NCBI RefSeq assembly: GCF_004349245.1
Contig: NZ_SMLC01000017.1
Location: forward strand, 1 to 64,000
Direction: 5' to 3'
Origin: Actinomadura sp. 6K520
Lineage (GTDB): Bacteria > Actinomycetota > Actinomycetes > Streptosporangiales > Streptosporangiaceae
DNA length: 64,000 nt
Shown: positions 49,995-57,483 of the stretch, piece by piece
How the letters are laid out: each line of letters opens with the position of its first letter
Numbering within the stretch: position 1 is the stretch's first letter
Program-made: the position numbers and the translations under genes
Notes under the pieces: model-generated
The model's input: the letters and a program-made list of their open reading frames with translations, nothing else
What the model was told of the DNA's origin: nothing
The model's database searches: none

Positions 49995-52961
49995 ATGGAG
50001 GGTCGTGCGGCCCGCGATGCCGGGGACGTGCCCGGCAACACACCGCTGGTCGGGCGGCGGAAGGCGCTGCAGGAGATCGGGAGGGTGCTCGACGCGGCCG
50101 AGCGGGGCTACGGTTTCCTCGCGCTGGTCGGCGAGCCCGGCGCCGGCAAGACGCGGCTGCTGAACGAGCTCGCGGATGCGGCCAACGCGCGCAAGCTGCC
50201 GTTCGTGGCGGGCCGCGCCGCCGAGTTCGAGCAGGAGATGCCGTTCGGCGCCGTGGTCGACGCCCTCGACGACCGCCTCGAAGAGCACGCCCCCGGCCTG
50301 CCTCCGGGCGCGCTGCGGCTGCTCGGGACGGTCTTCCCCGCGCTGGGCGACCCGGCCGACCCGGCCCGGCTCGCCGGCGGGACCGCCTCCCCCGACTCGC
50401 GGGTGGCCCGCTACCAGCTGCACCGCACCGTCCGCCACCTGCTGGAGGACCTCGCCGAACCGGACGGCCTCGTCCTGATCCTGGACGACCTGCACTGGGC
50501 CGACGACGCGACGATCGAGCTGCTGGACCACCTCGTCCGCCATCCGCCGCGCGCCCGGGTGCTGGTGGCGGTCGCCTACCGGCCGGCGCAGGCGACGCCG
50601 CGGCTGGCGGCGCTGGTGGACGCGGCCGGTCCGCAGGGCGTGCGGATCACCGCCGACCCGCTCACCCACAGCGAGGTGGCCGAGTTCCTCGGACCGAGCG
50701 TGAGCCGGTCGCGGTGCGAGGCGCTGTTCAAGGCCAGCGGCGGCAACCCGTTCTACCTGGAGGCCCTGTCCAGGATGGGCGACGGGACCGTACCGGCCGG
50801 GCGCGGCGGCGCGGAACTGGGGGGCTGGGAGGACGGCGTCGCGAGCCTGACCGAGGTGCCGCCCGCGGTGCGGGCCGCCCTGCAGGTGGAGCTGAGCGCG
50901 CTGCCGCCCGAGGCGCTGCTGATGGCGCGGGGCGCGGCGGTGGCCGCGGACGTGTTCGAGCCCGCGCTCGCCGCGGTCGCCGCGGAGATGGAGCAGGACG
51001 CCGCGCTGGCGGCGCTGGACGTGCTGACCGGTCATGACGTGGTGCGCCCCACCGGCGGCGGGCGGTTCCGGTTCCGGCACCCGCTGGTGCGGCACGTGGC
51101 CTACGCCTCGACGGCGGCGGGCTGGCGGCTCGCCGCGCACTCGCGGGTGGCGGCGCGGCTGGCCGAGCTGGGCGCGCCCGCGTCCGTCCGCGCCCACCAC
51201 GTGGTGCGGTCGGCGCGGTTCGGCGACCGGGAGGCGATCGGGACGCTGGTGGAGGCCGCCCGGGTCGTCGCGCTCCAGGCGCCCGCCACCGCCGCGTACT
51301 GGCTGGAGGCGGCGCTGGAGCTGATGCCCGGCACCGCCGAGGCGGGTACGGGCGGCCCGCATCCCGACCGGATCGAGCTGCTGGTCGAGCTGGCGCACGT
51401 GCAGGCCGTCAGCGGGCACGCCGAGCAGGGCCGGGAGACCGCCCGCACGCTGCTCGGGCTGCTGCCCGCCGACGACACCGTCCGGCGCGCCCGGACGGTG
51501 CACCTGTGCGCGGTGATGGAGCGCCAGCTCGGCCGGATCCACGAGGCGCGGGCGCTGGTGCTGGACGAGCTGCGCCGCATCACCGACCGGCAGACCCCCG
51601 AGGCGGTGCTGCTGCGGATCCGCCTGGTCGCCGACCGGATCCAGCGGATCGACACGCGCGGGTCCCACGCCGTCCTGGACAGCATCCCCGAGAGCGCCCC
51701 CGAGTGGGGCCCGGGGCTCCGCGCGGCCGTGGCGTCGATGCGGCCGATGGTGGCCTACGGGCGCGGCGAGGTCGAGGAGGCGATCCGCTACGCGCAGCGG
51801 GCCGACCAGCTGTTCTCCGCCGCGTCCGACAACGACTTCGCCGACTGCCTGGACTGCTTCGCCTGGCTGGTGTTCGCCGAGTCGTTCCTCGGCATGTACG
51901 ACAGCGCGCTGCGGCACGCCGAACGGCTGGTGTCGATCACCCGGACGACGGGCCAGACGTTCATCCTGGGCTACATGCTGGCCGGGCAGTCGCGCGTGCT
52001 GGCCCAGTTGGGCCGGATGGAGGAGGCCGCCGCCGTCGCCGACGAGGCCGCCGCCGTCGGCCGCGACCTGCGCTCCAAGGAGGTCCTGGCCTACGGGCTG
52101 ATCCAGCAGTGCCTGACCGCGTCCTGGATGGGCGACCACGACCGGGCCCTGCAGGCCGGGGACGAGGCGGTCGCCAACGACACCGGCTCGGGCGAGTGGT
52201 GGACGCACATGGCGCACGTCGCCCGCGCCCTGGCCATCATCGGCGCGGGGCGGCCCGACGAGGGCGCCGAGGCGCTGGTCGCCGCGTGCGGCGACGGAAC
52301 CCAGGGCCTGGACTTCAGCACCCTGGTGATCTGCGCCGAGACGCTCGCGGCCGTCCGCACGGCGCAGGGCGACCAGGCCGACGCCGCGAACTGGGCCGAC
52401 ATCGCCGAGGCGATCGCCAACCCGGCGCTGACCGGCGACGTGGGCCTGGCCCGGCTCACCCGCGCGCACGCCGTCCGCGCCGCCGACCCCGCGGGCGCGG
52501 CGGCGCTGGCCGCCGAGGCCGCCGACCTGCTGGCCAAGGCCGGCCGCCGCCCCGAGGCCGGCCGCGCCGAACTGGCCGCCGGCCTCGCGCACGCCGCCGC
52601 CGGCGACCGCGCGGCGGCGCGCGAGCGGGTGCGCGCGGCGGCGGACATGTTCCAGGCGTGCGGGATGCGGGGGCTGCACGCGCAGGCCGTCCGCGAGCAG
52701 CGCCGCCTCGGCGTCCGCGTCCCGGCCCCCGGCCGGCCCGCCTCCGCCGCCGGGAGCGGCAAGGAGAAGCTGCCGTTCGGGCTGTCCCCGCGCGAGCACG
52801 AGATCGCCCTGCTCGTCGTGGAGGGCTGCAGCAACCAGCAGATCGCCGAACGGCTGTTCCTCAGCGTCCGGACGGTCGAGACCCACCTGTCCCGCGTGTT
52901 CGCCAAGATCGGCGTCTCGTCCCGCGTCGGGGTCGCGACCGCCATGAACCGCCCAGAGTGA
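49995..52961 (+). CDS. Large LuxR-family (LAL) ATP-binding transcriptional regulator
   Basis: 988 residues. An N-terminal AAA/STAND ATPase has Walker A GEPGAGKTR at about 45-53 and Walker B LVLILDDLHWADDA. A long TPR-like alpha-helical middle follows. The C-terminal LuxR helix-turn-helix spans about 925-988 (LSPREHEIALLVVEGCSNQQIAERLFLSVRTVETHLSRVFAKIG). LAL proteins activate catabolic or secondary-metabolite operons. Two operator-like repeats lie between this gene and the downstream hydrolase/GMC operon, its likely target. The ATG at 49995 has a G-rich stretch (ttggggtgttgac) just before it. Confidence 0.9.
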   Translation: MEGRAARDAGDVPGNTPLVGRRKALQEIGRVLDAAERGYGFLALVGEPGAGKTRLLNELADAANARKLPFVAGRAAEFEQEMPFGAVVDALDDRLEEHAPGLPPGALRLLGTVFPALGDPADPARLAGGTASPDSRVARYQLHRTVRHLLEDLAEPDGLVLILDDLHWADDATIELLDHLVRHPPRARVLVAVAYRPAQATPRLAALVDAAGPQGVRITADPLTHSEVAEFLGPSVSRSRCEALFKASGGNPFYLEALSRMGDGTVPAGRGGAELGGWEDGVASLTEVPPAVRAALQVELSALPPEALLMARGAAVAADVFEPALAAVAAEMEQDAALAALDVLTGHDVVRPTGGGRFRFRHPLVRHVAYASTAAGWRLAAHSRVAARLAELGAPASVRAHHVVRSARFGDREAIGTLVEAARVVALQAPATAAYWLEAALELMPGTAEAGTGGPHPDRIELLVELAHVQAVSGHAEQGRETARTLLGLLPADDTVRRARTVHLCAVMERQLGRIHEARALVLDELRRITDRQTPEAVLLRIRLVADRIQRIDTRGSHAVLDSIPESAPEWGPGLRAAVASMRPMVAYGRGEVEEAIRYAQRADQLFSAASDNDFADCLDCFAWLVFAESFLGMYDSALRHAERLVSITRTTGQTFILGYMLAGQSRVLAQLGRMEEAAAVADEAAAVGRDLRSKEVLAYGLIQQCLTASWMGDHDRALQAGDEAVANDTGSGEWWTHMAHVARALAIIGAGRPDEGAEALVAACGDGTQGLDFSTLVICAETLAAVRTAQGDQADAANWADIAEAIANPALTGDVGLARLTRAHAVRAADPAGAAALAAEAADLLAKAGRRPEAGRAELAAGLAHAAAGDRAAARERVRAAADMFQACGMRGLHAQAVREQRRLGVRVPAPGRPASAAGSGKEKLPFGLSPREHEIALLVVEGCSNQQIAERLFLSVRTVETHLSRVFAKIGVSSRVGVATAMNRPE

Positions 52962-53107: not shown

Positions 53108-54202
53108 ATGGACGAGCAGCGGATCGCGCGCTTCACCCGCGCGGGCGTCGCCGACGCCGAGGTGTCCGATCACCCCTTCGGCACCGCCGACGGGCTCACC
53201 CTGAACCTGACCCGCTTCCGCCGCGCCCCCTCCGACGACGTGGTCCTGCTGGTGCACGGCCTGACGACGTCCAGCGACATGTACATCATGCCGGAGCACA
53301 CCAACCTGGTGAACTTCCTCCACGACGCCGGGTTCGGCGACGTGTGGGCGCTGGACTTCCGGATGAGCGGGCGGTTCCCCTACAACAGCGAGACCCACCG
53401 CCACGACCTCGACGACATCGCGCTGCACGACCATCCGGCGGCGCTGGCCGAACTGCGCCGCCACATCGGCGACCGGCGGGTGCACGTCATCGCGCACTGC
53501 CTGGGCTCGGTGTCGTTCTCGATGGCGCTGTTCGCCGGGACCGTCACCGGCATCACCAGCCTGACCTGCAACAGCGTCTCGCTGACCCCGCGGACCCCGG
53601 CCTGGTCGAAGCTCAAGCTGCGGTACGGGCCGCCGCTGATGGAGTACCTCCTCGGACCGTGCCAGATCGACCCGCGCTACGGTGAGGCCCCCGCGCTGAC
53701 CCGCGGCTGGATGCTCGCCAAGGCGGTCGCGCCGTTCCACCGCACGTGCGACGAGCCCGCGTGCCACATGCTCAGCTTCATGTGGGGCGGCGGGAAGCCG
53801 ATCTTCTCGCACGGCAAGATGTCGCCGGTCACGCACGGCCGCCTCTCCGACCTGTTCGGGGCCTGCAACGTCCACTACTACCGGCACGTCCACGCGATGG
53901 TGAAGGCCGGCCGGGCCGTGAAGTTCGACCGGCGCGACCCCGCGCACGCGGACCTGCCCGCCGACTACCTGGCGGGCGCCAAGGCGGTCACCACGCCGAT
54001 CCTGTTCCTCACCGGAGACCGCAACCACGTGTTCACCGACTCCAACATCGTCTGCCACCGGCTGCTCGAATCGGTCGCGCCCGGCCTGCACGAGCTGGCG
54101 ATCCTGCCCGGCTACGGCCACCAGGACCCGTTCATGGGCGCGGACGTCGCCACCGAGGTGTTCCCGCAGGTCCTCGACTTCCTGAAGCGGAAGGCGGGCT
54201 GA
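53108..54202 (+). CDS. Alpha/beta hydrolase with cysteine nucleophile
   Basis: 364 residues. Oxyanion region LLVHGLTTSSDMY; nucleophile elbow IAHCLGS puts Cys131 where most relatives have Ser; acid in TGDRNHVF at about 307; His in GYGHQDPF at about 338. Proteins of this type neighbour, or are fused to, cholesterol-oxidase-like GMC enzymes. The substrate may be a steroid or fatty ester or lactone (inference). I use ATG 53108, with GGAGGGG 6 nt upstream, rather than an earlier ATG at 53060. It directly precedes the GMC gene (2-nt gap). Confidence 0.85.
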   Translation: MDEQRIARFTRAGVADAEVSDHPFGTADGLTLNLTRFRRAPSDDVVLLVHGLTTSSDMYIMPEHTNLVNFLHDAGFGDVWALDFRMSGRFPYNSETHRHDLDDIALHDHPAALAELRRHIGDRRVHVIAHCLGSVSFSMALFAGTVTGITSLTCNSVSLTPRTPAWSKLKLRYGPPLMEYLLGPCQIDPRYGEAPALTRGWMLAKAVAPFHRTCDEPACHMLSFMWGGGKPIFSHGKMSPVTHGRLSDLFGACNVHYYRHVHAMVKAGRAVKFDRRDPAHADLPADYLAGAKAVTTPILFLTGDRNHVFTDSNIVCHRLLESVAPGLHELAILPGYGHQDPFMGADVATEVFPQVLDFLKRKAG

Positions 54203-54204
54203 CC

Positions 54205-56706
54205 ATGGGACACGACACCGAGTACGGGGGCATCGAGCACGGGGGCATCGACGAGCACGTGGACACCGTCGTCGTCGGCTCCGGCTTCGGCGGGTCGGTG
54301 GCCGCGTACCGGCTGGCGGAGGCCGGGCGGCAGGTCGTGCTGCTGGAGCGCGGGCAGCCCTACCCGCCGGGCGCCTTCCCGCGCTCGCCCGCCCAGATGG
54401 GACGGGCGTTCTGGGACCCCGACGCCGGGCTGTACGGGATGTTCGACGTGTGGAGCTTCCAGGGCTGCGACTCGGTCGTGTCCTCCGGGCTCGGCGGCGG
54501 CTCCCTCATCTACGCCAACGTGCTGCTGCGCAAGGACGAGAACTGGTTCGTGCACGACCGGCCGCTGCCCGGCGGCGGATACGAGCCCTGGCCGATCTCC
54601 CGCGCCGACCTCGACCCGCACTACGACGCCGTCGAGAAGATGCTGGGCGCGACGCCGTACCCGCTCGACCGGGTGCCGTACGACGACACCCCGAAGGCGC
54701 ACGCGATGCAGGACGCCGCGGCGGAACTCGGCCTGCAGTGCACGCTGCCGCCGCTGGCGGTCAGCTTCGCCTCCCAGCCGGACGGCACCCCCGCCCTCGG
54801 GCTGCCCATCGCCGACGCCGGGTACGGCAACATCCACGGCGTCCCGCGGCGGACGTGCCGGCTGTGCGGCGAGTGCGACATCGGCTGCAACGACGGCGCC
54901 AAGAACAGCCTCGACCACACCTACCTGTCGGCGGCGGCGCACCACGGCGCCGACATCCGCACGTCCCACGAGGTGAAGGCGCTGCGGCCGCGGCCCGGCG
55001 GCGGGTACGAGGTCGACTACGTCCACCACGCCGATCTGACCGCGAAGCAGAGCCGCCCGCCCGTCCGGACGATCGGCTGCGACCGGCTGGTCCTCGGCGC
55101 CGGCACCTACGGCACCACGTTCCTGCTGCTGAAGTCGCGGGCCGCGTTCCCCGGCCTCGGCGACGCGCTCGGCACGCGGTTCAGCGGCAACGGCGACCTG
55201 CTGACGTTCCTGCTGCGGGCCAGGGACCGCAACCGGGTCCGCCCGCTGAACGCCAGCCGCGGCCCGGTCATCACCACCGCGATCCGGCTGCCCGACGAGG
55301 TGGACGGCGTGCCCGGCGCGGGCCGCGGCGCCTACATCCAGGACGGCGGTTACCCCGGCTTCACCGACTGGATCGTCGACGGCTTCGACATCGGCCGCGA
55401 CTTCGAGCGCGCGGTGAAGTTCCTGTGGGACCGGTTCACCGACCTGTTCCGGGACGCGCCGGACACCAACCTGTCCAAGGAGATCTCCGACCTGATCGGC
55501 GACGGGGCCCTCACGGTCAGCTCGCTGCCGCTGCTCGGCATGGGCCGCGACGCCGCCGACGGGCGGCTGCACCTGCGGGACGGCAGGCTCGCCGCGGACT
55601 GGTCGGCGGAGACCAGCGAGGAGCTGTTCACCCGGGTCCGCAAGACCATGCAGCGCATCGCGGACGTGCTCGGCGCCGAGTACGCCGACAACCCGATGTG
55701 GTTCCGCAAGCGCATCATCACCGTCCATCCCCTGGGCGGCGCCCCGATGGGCGCCCACCCGGGCGAGGGCGTCTGCGACGCCTTCGGCGAGGTGTTCGGG
55801 TTCCCGGGCCTCTACATCGCCGACGGGGCGGCGATGCCGGGGCCGGTGGGCCCGAACCCCTCGCTCACCATCGCCGCGCAGGCAGACCGGATGGCCACGC
55901 GGATGCTGGAGCACGCGTCCGCGCGGCGGGGCGCGGGCGGCTCCGCCAGCACCGTCCCGTCTCGCACGGGGGCCGAGCCGGCCGGGGGAGCCGGCTCGCC
56001 TGACGGGGCGGGGAACGGCTCGGCGTACGGTCCGGTTTCGGGGCGCCACGGAGGGTCACGGGGACCGTCCGACGTGGCGACGGACCGTACGTCGCTGTCG
56101 TTCACCGAGGAGATGAAGGGGTTCGTCACCTACGGGGAGACCGATCCGCGGATCGGGGAGCTGGCCGACGGCCGCCGCCCGCTGTCGTTCCGCCTGACGA
56201 TCACCGCGGACGACATCGACCGCTTCCTCGCCGAGCCCGCCCACGAGGCCCGCGCCGAAGGGTGGGTGGACGCGACCGGCCACGGGGGCCGGCGCCCCGT
56301 CGAGCAGGGCACGTTCAACCTGTTCGTCGAGGACGGCCCGGACGACCGGCGCCTGATGCGGTACCGGCTGTGCTACACCGACGGCGAGGGCCGGCGGCGG
56401 ACGCTGAGCGGGACCAAGAAGGTCCTGCACGGCCCGCCGACGCGGATCTGGCCGGACACCTCCACGCTGTACGTGCGGCTGCTCGACGGGCACGTCGGCG
56501 CGGGCGAGGAGGACGGCGAGGAGGACGGCGAGGAGGACGGCGCGGAGGTCGTCGCGGCGGGTGTGCTGAACATCCGGCTGACCGACTTCGCGCGGCAGCT
56601 CACCACGTTCCGGACGTCGGGCCCGGACGGCCTGGAGAAACTGCTCAGGTTCGGCAGGTTCTTCGCGGGTGAGCTGTGGGAGGTCTACGGCCCCGACCTC
56701 GTGTGA
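54205..56706 (+). CDS. GMC-type FAD oxidoreductase (cholesterol-oxidase-like) with extra C-terminal domain
   Basis: 833 residues. The FAD-binding GSGFGGS is at 25-31, a four-cysteine cluster at 218, 221, 224 and 228 (CRLCGECDIGC), and GMC C-terminal motifs HPLGGAPMG and NPSLTIAAQADRMA lie near 515-560. From about 630 a further domain of some 200 residues (SFTEEMKGFVTYGETDPR, TFNLFVEDGPDDRRLMRYRL, RIWPDTSTLYVRLLDG) follows a Gly/Ala/Ser linker; this resembles the linker domain of larger GMC-hydrolase proteins. It probably oxidises a sterol or bulky alcohol. An EEDG tandem repeat lies at about 766-780. Confidence 0.87.
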   Translation: MGHDTEYGGIEHGGIDEHVDTVVVGSGFGGSVAAYRLAEAGRQVVLLERGQPYPPGAFPRSPAQMGRAFWDPDAGLYGMFDVWSFQGCDSVVSSGLGGGSLIYANVLLRKDENWFVHDRPLPGGGYEPWPISRADLDPHYDAVEKMLGATPYPLDRVPYDDTPKAHAMQDAAAELGLQCTLPPLAVSFASQPDGTPALGLPIADAGYGNIHGVPRRTCRLCGECDIGCNDGAKNSLDHTYLSAAAHHGADIRTSHEVKALRPRPGGGYEVDYVHHADLTAKQSRPPVRTIGCDRLVLGAGTYGTTFLLLKSRAAFPGLGDALGTRFSGNGDLLTFLLRARDRNRVRPLNASRGPVITTAIRLPDEVDGVPGAGRGAYIQDGGYPGFTDWIVDGFDIGRDFERAVKFLWDRFTDLFRDAPDTNLSKEISDLIGDGALTVSSLPLLGMGRDAADGRLHLRDGRLAADWSAETSEELFTRVRKTMQRIADVLGAEYADNPMWFRKRIITVHPLGGAPMGAHPGEGVCDAFGEVFGFPGLYIADGAAMPGPVGPNPSLTIAAQADRMATRMLEHASARRGAGGSASTVPSRTGAEPAGGAGSPDGAGNGSAYGPVSGRHGGSRGPSDVATDRTSLSFTEEMKGFVTYGETDPRIGELADGRRPLSFRLTITADDIDRFLAEPAHEARAEGWVDATGHGGRRPVEQGTFNLFVEDGPDDRRLMRYRLCYTDGEGRRRTLSGTKKVLHGPPTRIWPDTSTLYVRLLDGHVGAGEEDGEEDGEEDGAEVVAAGVLNIRLTDFARQLTTFRTSGPDGLEKLLRFGRFFAGELWEVYGPDLV
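56504..56539 (+). repeat. Three 12-bp tandem repeats in the GMC gene
   Basis: GCGAGGAGGACG is repeated exactly at 56504, 56516 and 56528, giving an acidic GEEDGEEDGEEDG run in a surface loop of the C-terminal domain. Confidence 0.85.
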
Positions 56707-56950: not shown

Positions 56951-57409
56951 TTAGATGTCGGCGGCCTGGCGGGCCGGGCAGTCCGGGGGGCATTTCTCCG
57001 TGTGCCTGGGCAACCGGCGGGTGAAGTTCTTCAGCATCAGCCGGAACAGGGCGCGTATCAGGGGGCCGGTGCCGGGGATCAGAGGCACCAGGACGGCGTT
57101 CCAGCGGATCTCGGTGCCGGAGCCGGCGGCCTCCAGATGCACGTCGGAGCGGTAGCTGCGGACGGGCAGGCCGGACAGCGCCTTGTAGGCGAAGTGCGAG
57201 TACGGCTCGTAGGCGACGGTCTGCTCGCTGGCGGGCCAGATCTTCTTGACCGACCCGACGCCGTAGGTGGTCGTGTCGCCCTTGCGGGTCTGCTTGGCGG
57301 GGATGGGGAACCCGCCCCACGCGCCCCACGCCTCCGGAACGGCCAGGTGCCGGAACAGTTCCTCGGGCGTCGCGGTCGAGGTGGCGGTGAGCTGGATCTC
57401 GTACGGCAT
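56951..57409 (-). CDS. SRPBCC (START-like) family protein
   Basis: 152 residues with the polyketide-cyclase/dehydrase pattern: IQLTATSTATPEELFRHLAVPEAW at the N-terminus, a central beta-sheet region (GSVKKIWPASEQTVAYEPYSHFAYKAL) and a C-terminal helix LIRALFRLMLKNFTRRLPRH. It forms a hydrophobic ligand cavity; no catalytic residues can be assigned. The C-terminal CPPDCPARQ adds two cysteines not typical of the fold. It is convergent with the GMC gene and 74 nt downstream of the flavin-reductase-like gene. Confidence 0.8.
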   Translation of the reverse strand: MPYEIQLTATSTATPEELFRHLAVPEAWGAWGGFPIPAKQTRKGDTTTYGVGSVKKIWPASEQTVAYEPYSHFAYKALSGLPVRSYRSDVHLEAAGSGTEIRWNAVLVPLIPGTGPLIRALFRLMLKNFTRRLPRHTEKCPPDCPARQAADI

Positions 57410-57483
57410 GCTCTCTCCCGTGGCTGATCACCGAACGGTAGTCAGCCGGACACCACCGGCACAAGCCGCCCCGGGCCGCGGTG

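Follow-up and report, generated by a model that had tools for sequence, protein, structure and literature searches.

A 64,000-nucleotide stretch of DNA from Actinomadura sp. 6K520 (contig NZ_SMLC01000017.1, positions 1 to 64,000; referred to here as the window) carries, on its + strand, a tight two-gene unit in which a hydrolase gene is followed by the gene for a GMC flavoprotein. The hydrolase is predicted, from sequence comparison and a structure model, to use a Cys-His-Asn triad on the fold of the gastric and lysosomal acid lipases. We read the unit as a three-module, probably lipid-directed and probably cytosolic system (no signal peptide was seen by eye) which cleaves an acyl bond and oxidises an alcohol, the flavoprotein being a dehydrogenase, and give this reading a probability of about one half. 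The same parts, reshuffled and sometimes fused, occur in several bacterial phyla, an indication that they form a single unstudied machine which probably processes lipids. In its wider form the proposal is more tentative: a natural and widespread family of Cys-His-Asn (papain-like) lipases on the acid-lipase scaffold may act together with an iron-sulphur (Fe-S) GMC dehydrogenase and a barrel domain not described before to hydrolyse and oxidise a lipid, whether derived from phospholipid or of another kind; records from eight phyla contain the family.

The hydrolase stop and the flavoprotein reading frame are 2 nucleotides apart, the junction being gcgggcTGAccATGgga. Pfam matches were Abhydrolase_1 in the hydrolase and GMC_oxred_N and GMC_oxred_C in the 833-residue flavoprotein, in which no Pfam family matched the residues after about 575. 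The features of the unit are as follows.

53108..54202, + strand: alpha/beta hydrolase, 364 residues, gastric/lysosomal-acid-lipase fold, predicted Cys131-His338-Asn306 triad
53498..53500, + strand: codon of Cys131, predicted nucleophile, in the elbow IAHCLGS (Cys in 86/86 rows)
54023..54025, + strand: codon of Asn306, at the position of the catalytic Asp (Asn in 85/86 rows; aligned to the gastric lipase Asp)
54119..54121, + strand: codon of His338, predicted catalytic His, in GYGHQD (His in 86/86 rows and in 15/15 distant relatives)
54205-56706, + strand: GMC flavoprotein reading frame, 833 residues (GMC domain, loop and domain X)
54205..55929, + strand: GMC flavoprotein domain, about residues 1-575, with the active pair His508/Asn551 (71/71 rows)
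54856..54888, + strand: cysteine loop C218/C221/C224/C228, predicted 3Fe-4S (or 4Fe-4S) site, from conservation and the spacing of a Burkholderia glucose dehydrogenase
56095..56703, + strand: domain X, residues 631-833, predicted eight-stranded barrel

Relatives of the hydrolase were found with six peptide patterns. The best 80 of 97 confirmed loci were kept, together with five matches in other genomes; adding the window sequence and dropping its own fetched copy (L089) gave an alignment of 86 rows. The preliminary description of this DNA had taken the motif AHCLGS for a nucleophile elbow with Cys in place of the usual Ser, and that assignment was borne out, Cys131 being present in every row. 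His338 was likewise invariant. Position 306 is Asn in all rows except L054, which has Ser there and is alone in having Gln for His130. Since one search pattern covers His338 and another C219, the conservation of these two residues is partly selected for; none of the patterns spans Cys131, Asn306 or C214.

Alignment with human gastric lipase places Cys131 at the elbow Ser, Asn306 at the Asp of GGKD and His338 at the His of NHLD. As a control, 15 distant relatives were aligned; all have Ser in the nucleophile column and His in the His column, and 14 (all except L104) have Asp in the acid column. A profile of these relatives matched the family profile over 344 columns with a probability of 99.9, Ser falling opposite Cys131 and Asp opposite Asn306. 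The triad is therefore predicted to be Cys-His-Asn, from the conservation of Cys131 and Asn306 as against Ser and Asp in the distant relatives. In 32 further hydrolase rows, many of which are repeat fetches of one gene and one of which is the window itself (L135), the Cys, Asn and His motif is retained in 31; the exception is the copy fused to other modules at locus L071, with AHGAGG at the elbow. In the family, distant-relative and further-row sets, Cys was never seen together with Asp, nor a Ser nucleophile with Asn.

Chance or an alignment artefact was rejected as the origin of the Cys elbow, which appears in 86 of 86 rows and lies outside every search pattern. Loss of activity was rejected as a general explanation as well, given that Cys, His and Asn are retained together, although the fused L071 copy may be degenerate. 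The neighbouring D304 was discarded as the catalytic acid: it is Asp in only 37 of the 86 rows, and the Asp of the relatives aligns at 306. Full conservation in the 86 rows extends to four other hydrolase residues within the segment 211-243, C214, C219, H235 and H243, which are lost in four of six one-chain fusions (L121, L122, L123 and L170); they may form a metal or structural site.

The AlphaFold model of the hydrolase, made from a 57-row alignment, had a predicted local distance difference test score (pLDDT) of 94.0. Residue 131 lies at the junction of strand 124-130 with helix 131-143, and residues 306 and 338 come after strands 298-303 and 329-333, respectively; these are the standard places of an alpha/beta-hydrolase triad. 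The nearest solved chain was human lysosomal acid lipase 6v7n (VIA-align Z 33.6, root-mean-square deviation 3.0, 337 residues), followed by gastric lipases at Z 32.4 and 31.9 and then by PHA synthase at Z 25.4. The full-length fold of the acid lipases (1hlg, 1k8q and 6v7n; Z 31.9-33.6 over 332-339 residues) is thus found in the hydrolase with its triad positions in register, whereas their Ser-His-Asp triad is not; identity is 18%, and the present family is bacterial and linked to a flavoenzyme.

The PHA synthase PhaC has a Cys nucleophile with Asp as the acid. The hydrolase has the alpha/beta-hydrolase fold in common with PhaC (9knj), which differs in its lower Z, in catalysing polymerisation and in its profile, the hydrolase scoring 15.7 bits against a PHA_synth_I cut-off of 622.65. 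That second structural group and weak profile match suggest a reading in which the Cys enzyme, like PHA synthase, transfers an acyl group from a coenzyme A or carrier thioester via Cys131 to an alcohol or amine, the GMC enzyme preparing or finishing the acceptor. It gains some weight from a hydrolase-only branch of the family. In genomes G128 and G182 and on Rhodococcus plasmids the hydrolase adjoins genes of polyketide synthase (PKS) or non-ribosomal peptide synthetase (NRPS) type, and a thioester-reductase domain is present in the gene directly upstream at L154, L155, L156 and L120 (by Pfam) and at L172 (by annotation). AMP-binding, acyl-activating genes also lie near L058 and L029. We nevertheless consider acyl transfer unlikely for the system as a whole, as the full-length match is clearly better to the hydrolytic acid lipases and the recurring neighbours of the GMC loci, among those scanned, are phosphoesterases and not assembly lines. 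The hydrolase-only branch itself (L154, L155, L156, L120 and L172), which has the same Cys/Asn signature, may represent a release or transfer enzyme of PKS/NRPS pathways that has gone unrecognised.

The flavoprotein belongs to the GMC oxidoreductases, with 30.1 bits for GMC_oxred_N (cut-off 23) and 57.2 for GMC_oxred_C (cut-off 24.6). His508 and Asn551 are conserved in all 71 aligned GMC domains, from which L030, L054 and L092 were left out as too short. The domain had been described as holding a CxxCxxCxxxC cluster, and the arrangement C218-x2-C221-x2-C224-x3-C228 was indeed found, with C218, C224 and C228 in 71 of 71 rows and C221 in 66. The loop recurs in two further GMC proteins from this genome (as CTACGSCMIGC and CMECGECMVGC), so that it marks a wider GMC subgroup and is not specific to this operon. 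According to PMC6719666, Cys212, Cys218 and Cys222 of the Burkholderia glucose dehydrogenase BcGDH bind a 3Fe-4S cluster. The x5, x3 spacing of C218, C224 and C228 equals theirs, the two proteins having been compared by spacing alone, and a 3Fe-4S-type cluster is predicted in the loop on this basis. A search of solved structures with the cysteine-loop fragment did not return BcGDH (6a2u), the alpha subunit of a flavin adenine dinucleotide (FAD) glucose dehydrogenase, which differs from the present protein in its substrate class and in working with a gamma and a multihaem c subunit. Five solved chains of cholesterol oxidase were compared by alignment and none has a cysteine counterpart of the loop; the loop favours a dehydrogenase with an Fe-S exit path.

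Likeness to BcGDH allows the two steps to be reversed, the GMC enzyme making a lactone from a cyclic hemiacetal or sugar-like hydroxyl, as the Fe-S glucose dehydrogenase would, and the Cys hydrolase then opening it in the manner of dienelactone hydrolase, with a phosphoesterase supplying the dephosphorylated substrate. The shared cysteine spacing (PMC6719666) is consistent with this order, as are the phosphoesterases beside 31 of 80 loci and the presence of L-galactono-1,4-lactone dehydrogenase and xylitol oxidase among the PDB matches of an FAD_binding_4 neighbour at L049. Cys lactonases exist. The GMC sequence is, however, nearer to cholesterol oxidase than to the sugar dehydrogenases, the match of the hydrolase to acid lipases is full-length and domain X is found fused to patatin-like lipases; oxidation before hydrolysis therefore appears improbable.

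The preliminary description had called the unit a sterol-oxidase-like module. Lysosomal acid lipase, the solved structure closest to the hydrolase, is a cholesteryl-ester hydrolase, and the GMC domain comes nearest to cholesterol oxidase in the PDB. A pathway of a cholesteryl-ester-type hydrolase and a cholesterol-oxidase-type GMC enzyme is possible, although we do not favour it and regard it as very improbable. Class I cholesterol oxidases (1b4v, 1coy) have the same GMC fold and His/Asn pair and gave the best PDB matches (E 1.8e-27), and the cholesterol oxidase model NF058674 (CholsOxChoxAB) was the best NCBIfam match. The score in that model was only 181.9 bits against a cut-off of 850, whereas the two loop-bearing paralogs from the same genome reached 539 and 564.6. 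The glutamate of cholesterol oxidase is needed for isomerisation. In an alignment to 1b8s, an E361Q mutant, its position (Glu361) is occupied by Q379; Glu stands there in 50 of the 71 rows and Gln in 21. The cysteine loop weakens the sterol reading further, and the family is present in organisms that are not known to use sterols. Domain X is a further difference from the class I cholesterol oxidases. Acinetobacter ChoxAB, after which we guess the NCBIfam model was named, is reported as an active cholesterol oxidase (PMC8409315), which speaks for the sterol reading. Mycobacterium tuberculosis ChoD, which may belong to the same GMC subgroup, is reported not to convert cholesterol to cholestenone (PMC4626898), which speaks against it. 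The label of sterol oxidase was thus not upheld, while the idea of cleavage followed by oxidation, proposed along with it, is still reasonable.

The extra C-terminal domain of about 200 residues noted earlier was recovered as domain X, about residues 631-833, and the structure prediction suggested for residues 630-833 was run. From a 51-row alignment (row L039 was left out as too short) AlphaFold gave an eight-stranded barrel followed by C-terminal helices, with a pLDDT of 82.6. A known fold was sought for X and no clear match was obtained, the lists being topped by erythrocruorin linker, avidin and designed barrels; the avidin-type chains listed gave weak VIA Z values of 6.8-8.0. The lack of a clear match does not establish a new fold. 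X occurs behind the GMC domain as in the window, before the hydrolase in many Pseudomonadota, or as a stand-alone gene. It is also found at the C-terminus of a Pfam Patatin protein in two genomes from two actinobacterial families, G253 (L160, c6029-7591) and G009 (L157, c5665-7620). Of 44 loci matching X that were collected later, many as overlapping fetches, 37 also matched GMC. The seven others were five short ones (L142, L143, L144, L150 and L152), the patatin fusion L160 and the partial match L168.

The association of the three parts was determined with hidden Markov models (HMMs) for GMC and X built in this analysis, applied to flanks of at most 6 kb and less at contig ends. GMC was found near the hydrolase in 72 of the 80 loci and X in 70. 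The order hydrolase, GMC-X occurs in 28 loci, with four more ending before X at contig ends; GMC, X-hydrolase in 24, with variants; X, GMC, hydrolase in two; and others remain. Single chains of GMC-X-hydrolase were found in Rhizobium, Bernardetia, Azospirillum, Leptospira and Variovorax plasmid records and at L071. It had been said beforehand that failure of the two genes to co-occur elsewhere would count against the proposed pathway; because GMC lies beside the hydrolase in 72 of 80 loci and in the fusions, this is not the situation, and the earlier view that the genes belong together is upheld. In an even draw of 296 Actinomycetota genomes, the window's own included, the hydrolase was found in eight, X in 12 (one a partial match) and both in six, where 0.32 would be expected (hypergeometric P 2.8e-8); 10 and 6 candidates per genome were scored, so that absences in this draw are soft. 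By co-occurrence, gene order and fusion it is strongly supported that the three parts work together.

A tree of 62 rows separated 56 family rows from six Ser-type rows at 100/100, a long branch joining the Ser-type rows to the rest, as the tree program warned. Elbow Cys is present in 55 of the family rows, the other being the fused L071 copy. Five labels, Ser-type among them, required 7 changes on the tree, compared to a least possible number of 4 and a mean of 27.1 on shuffling (12 rows were unlabelled). The association of hydrolase, GMC and X therefore outlives the gene order. By record title or lineage the tree rows fall in Actinomycetota, Pseudomonadota, Planctomycetota, Gemmatimonadota, Nitrospinota and Myxococcota, and the plasmid records add Bacteroidota and Spirochaetota, making eight phyla.

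In the mechanism which we infer for the favoured cleave-then-oxidise system, a hydrophobic ester would enter the acid-lipase-like pocket of the hydrolase. Judging by the fold and triad, a Cys131-/His338+ pair oriented by Asn306 would attack the acyl ester (or thioester), an acyl-thioester would form on Cys131 with release of the alcohol, and water or another acceptor would then free the acid. The alcohol, or another lipid hydroxyl, would be oxidised by the GMC domain with FAD and the His508/Asn551 pair, and electrons may leave through the 3Fe-4S-type cluster at C218/C224/C228, predicted from residue spacing, to a partner, so that the GMC enzyme would act as a dehydrogenase. The barrel X may bind lipid or dock both enzymes, a role suggested by the class of its fold and by its occurrence in fusions with three different enzymes. 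The lipid theme is drawn from the fusion of X to patatin-like lipases and from the phosphoesterases near the hydrolase loci.

Several observations weigh against this interpretation. Neither GMC nor X was found in the flanks of six of the 80 loci (L029, L031, L042, L058, L064 and L074), and L044 and L047 have X and no GMC in theirs. In favour of the association, X was present somewhere in all 12 genomes searched, which include all six whose hydrolase locus shows neither. In the draw of 296, a hydrolase match was lacking in six of the 12 genomes that carry X. The proposed cluster is deduced from the spacing of the cysteines, X is without a clear solved-fold match (best Foldseek E 2.9e-3, best VIA Z 9.8), and the hydrolase part of the L071 fusion has the altered elbow given above. 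Since the hydrolase-only branch adjoins PKS/NRPS and thioester-reductase genes, the hydrolase chemistry may be acyl transfer, or release from a carrier protein. No phosphoesterase HMM match was obtained in the 64-kb window, and the larger of the two phosphoesterase families described below is weakly supported: one of five scanned members passes the PF00149 cut-off, two fall below it with E of 0.004-0.005 and two have no match. Activity data for members of the family were not found.

The fold of each enzyme is already known. As far as the literature search reached, three things are candidate novelties: a natural family of lipase fold whose Cys-His-Asn triad is fixed, the partnership of this family with a GMC enzyme of Fe-S type, and domain X. 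Nothing was recognised in the open-access literature on a GMC-X-hydrolase fusion or a natural Cys-His-Asn lipase, the limited reach of this search making it weak evidence of absence. A lipase with a Cys nucleophile has been engineered (cysteine-CALB, PMC6642262); it is man-made and Cys-His-Asp, whereas the present family is natural and has Asn as the third residue. That report asks whether cysteine-lipases occur in nature, a question which the hydrolase family would, if our reading is true, answer. The family is a ready candidate: it shows a second, matching change from Asp to Asn, can be compared with Ser-type relatives and offers natural variants by the dozen. Because the three modules have been fused anew repeatedly, the handover of substrate between acyl hydrolase and flavin dehydrogenase becomes directly testable, and attention is drawn to domain X, for which the Pfam copy used gave no model. 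The Asn at the acid position, X as a separable third module and the recurring phosphoesterases had all been missed by the preliminary description.

Simple scripts were used to call the neighbouring genes, with some errors (L042:562-4632, for example, is probably antisense), so only those supported by profile or similarity were used. Two genes beside the unit in the window are listed here.

49995..52961, + strand: LAL-type regulator (AAA_16 and GerE), conserved upstream in Actinomadura and near relatives
56951..57409, - strand: SRPBCC (Polyketide_cyc2) protein, convergent, conserved downstream in Actinomadura, its link to the system uncertain

The AAA_16 and GerE (LuxR) domains make the LAL label for the upstream gene a fair one. 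The unit had been placed under an LAL activator, and such a gene is present; its conservation is local only, an LAL regulator lying upstream in 32 of the 80 loci. By HMMs built in this analysis, a calcineurin-like or PhoD-like phosphoesterase lies beside 31 of the 80. At 28 of these it is a large phosphoesterase-like gene of one of two families (20 and 8 loci) and at three it is PhoD-like; L069 has a fourth PhoD, by Pfam. The 8-locus family too matches PF00149 weakly, two of three scanned members passing the cut-off, and the motifs SD.H, GD..D, GNHDKE and GHTH were read by eye. The genome from which the window comes has 13 PF00149 matches, none of them on the window's contig.

An FAD_binding_4 gene lies beside six of the 80 loci, with no match to its HMM in the 64-kb window. 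This oxidase is directly upstream of the hydrolase at L049, L058, L064, L070 and L074, joined to an SRPBCC domain at L058 and L074, and at three of the five no GMC was seen nearby. The VAO-type neighbour at L049 was considered as a class II cholesterol oxidase, which was not supported, the best among the matches listed (60 of 78) being EncM-like and cytokinin-dehydrogenase. On a Pseudonocardia plasmid (L119:12570-16340) a 1256-residue multicopper-oxidase-like protein and a SARP-type regulator stand beside the hydrolase, GMC and X genes. An SRPBCC gene was found downstream in 21 of the 80 loci. Actinomadura livida (L009) is the nearest of the fetched relatives; there the SRPBCC block (about 530 bp, window 56955-57480) has the opposite orientation to that in the window and in L010, while both its flanks are collinear.

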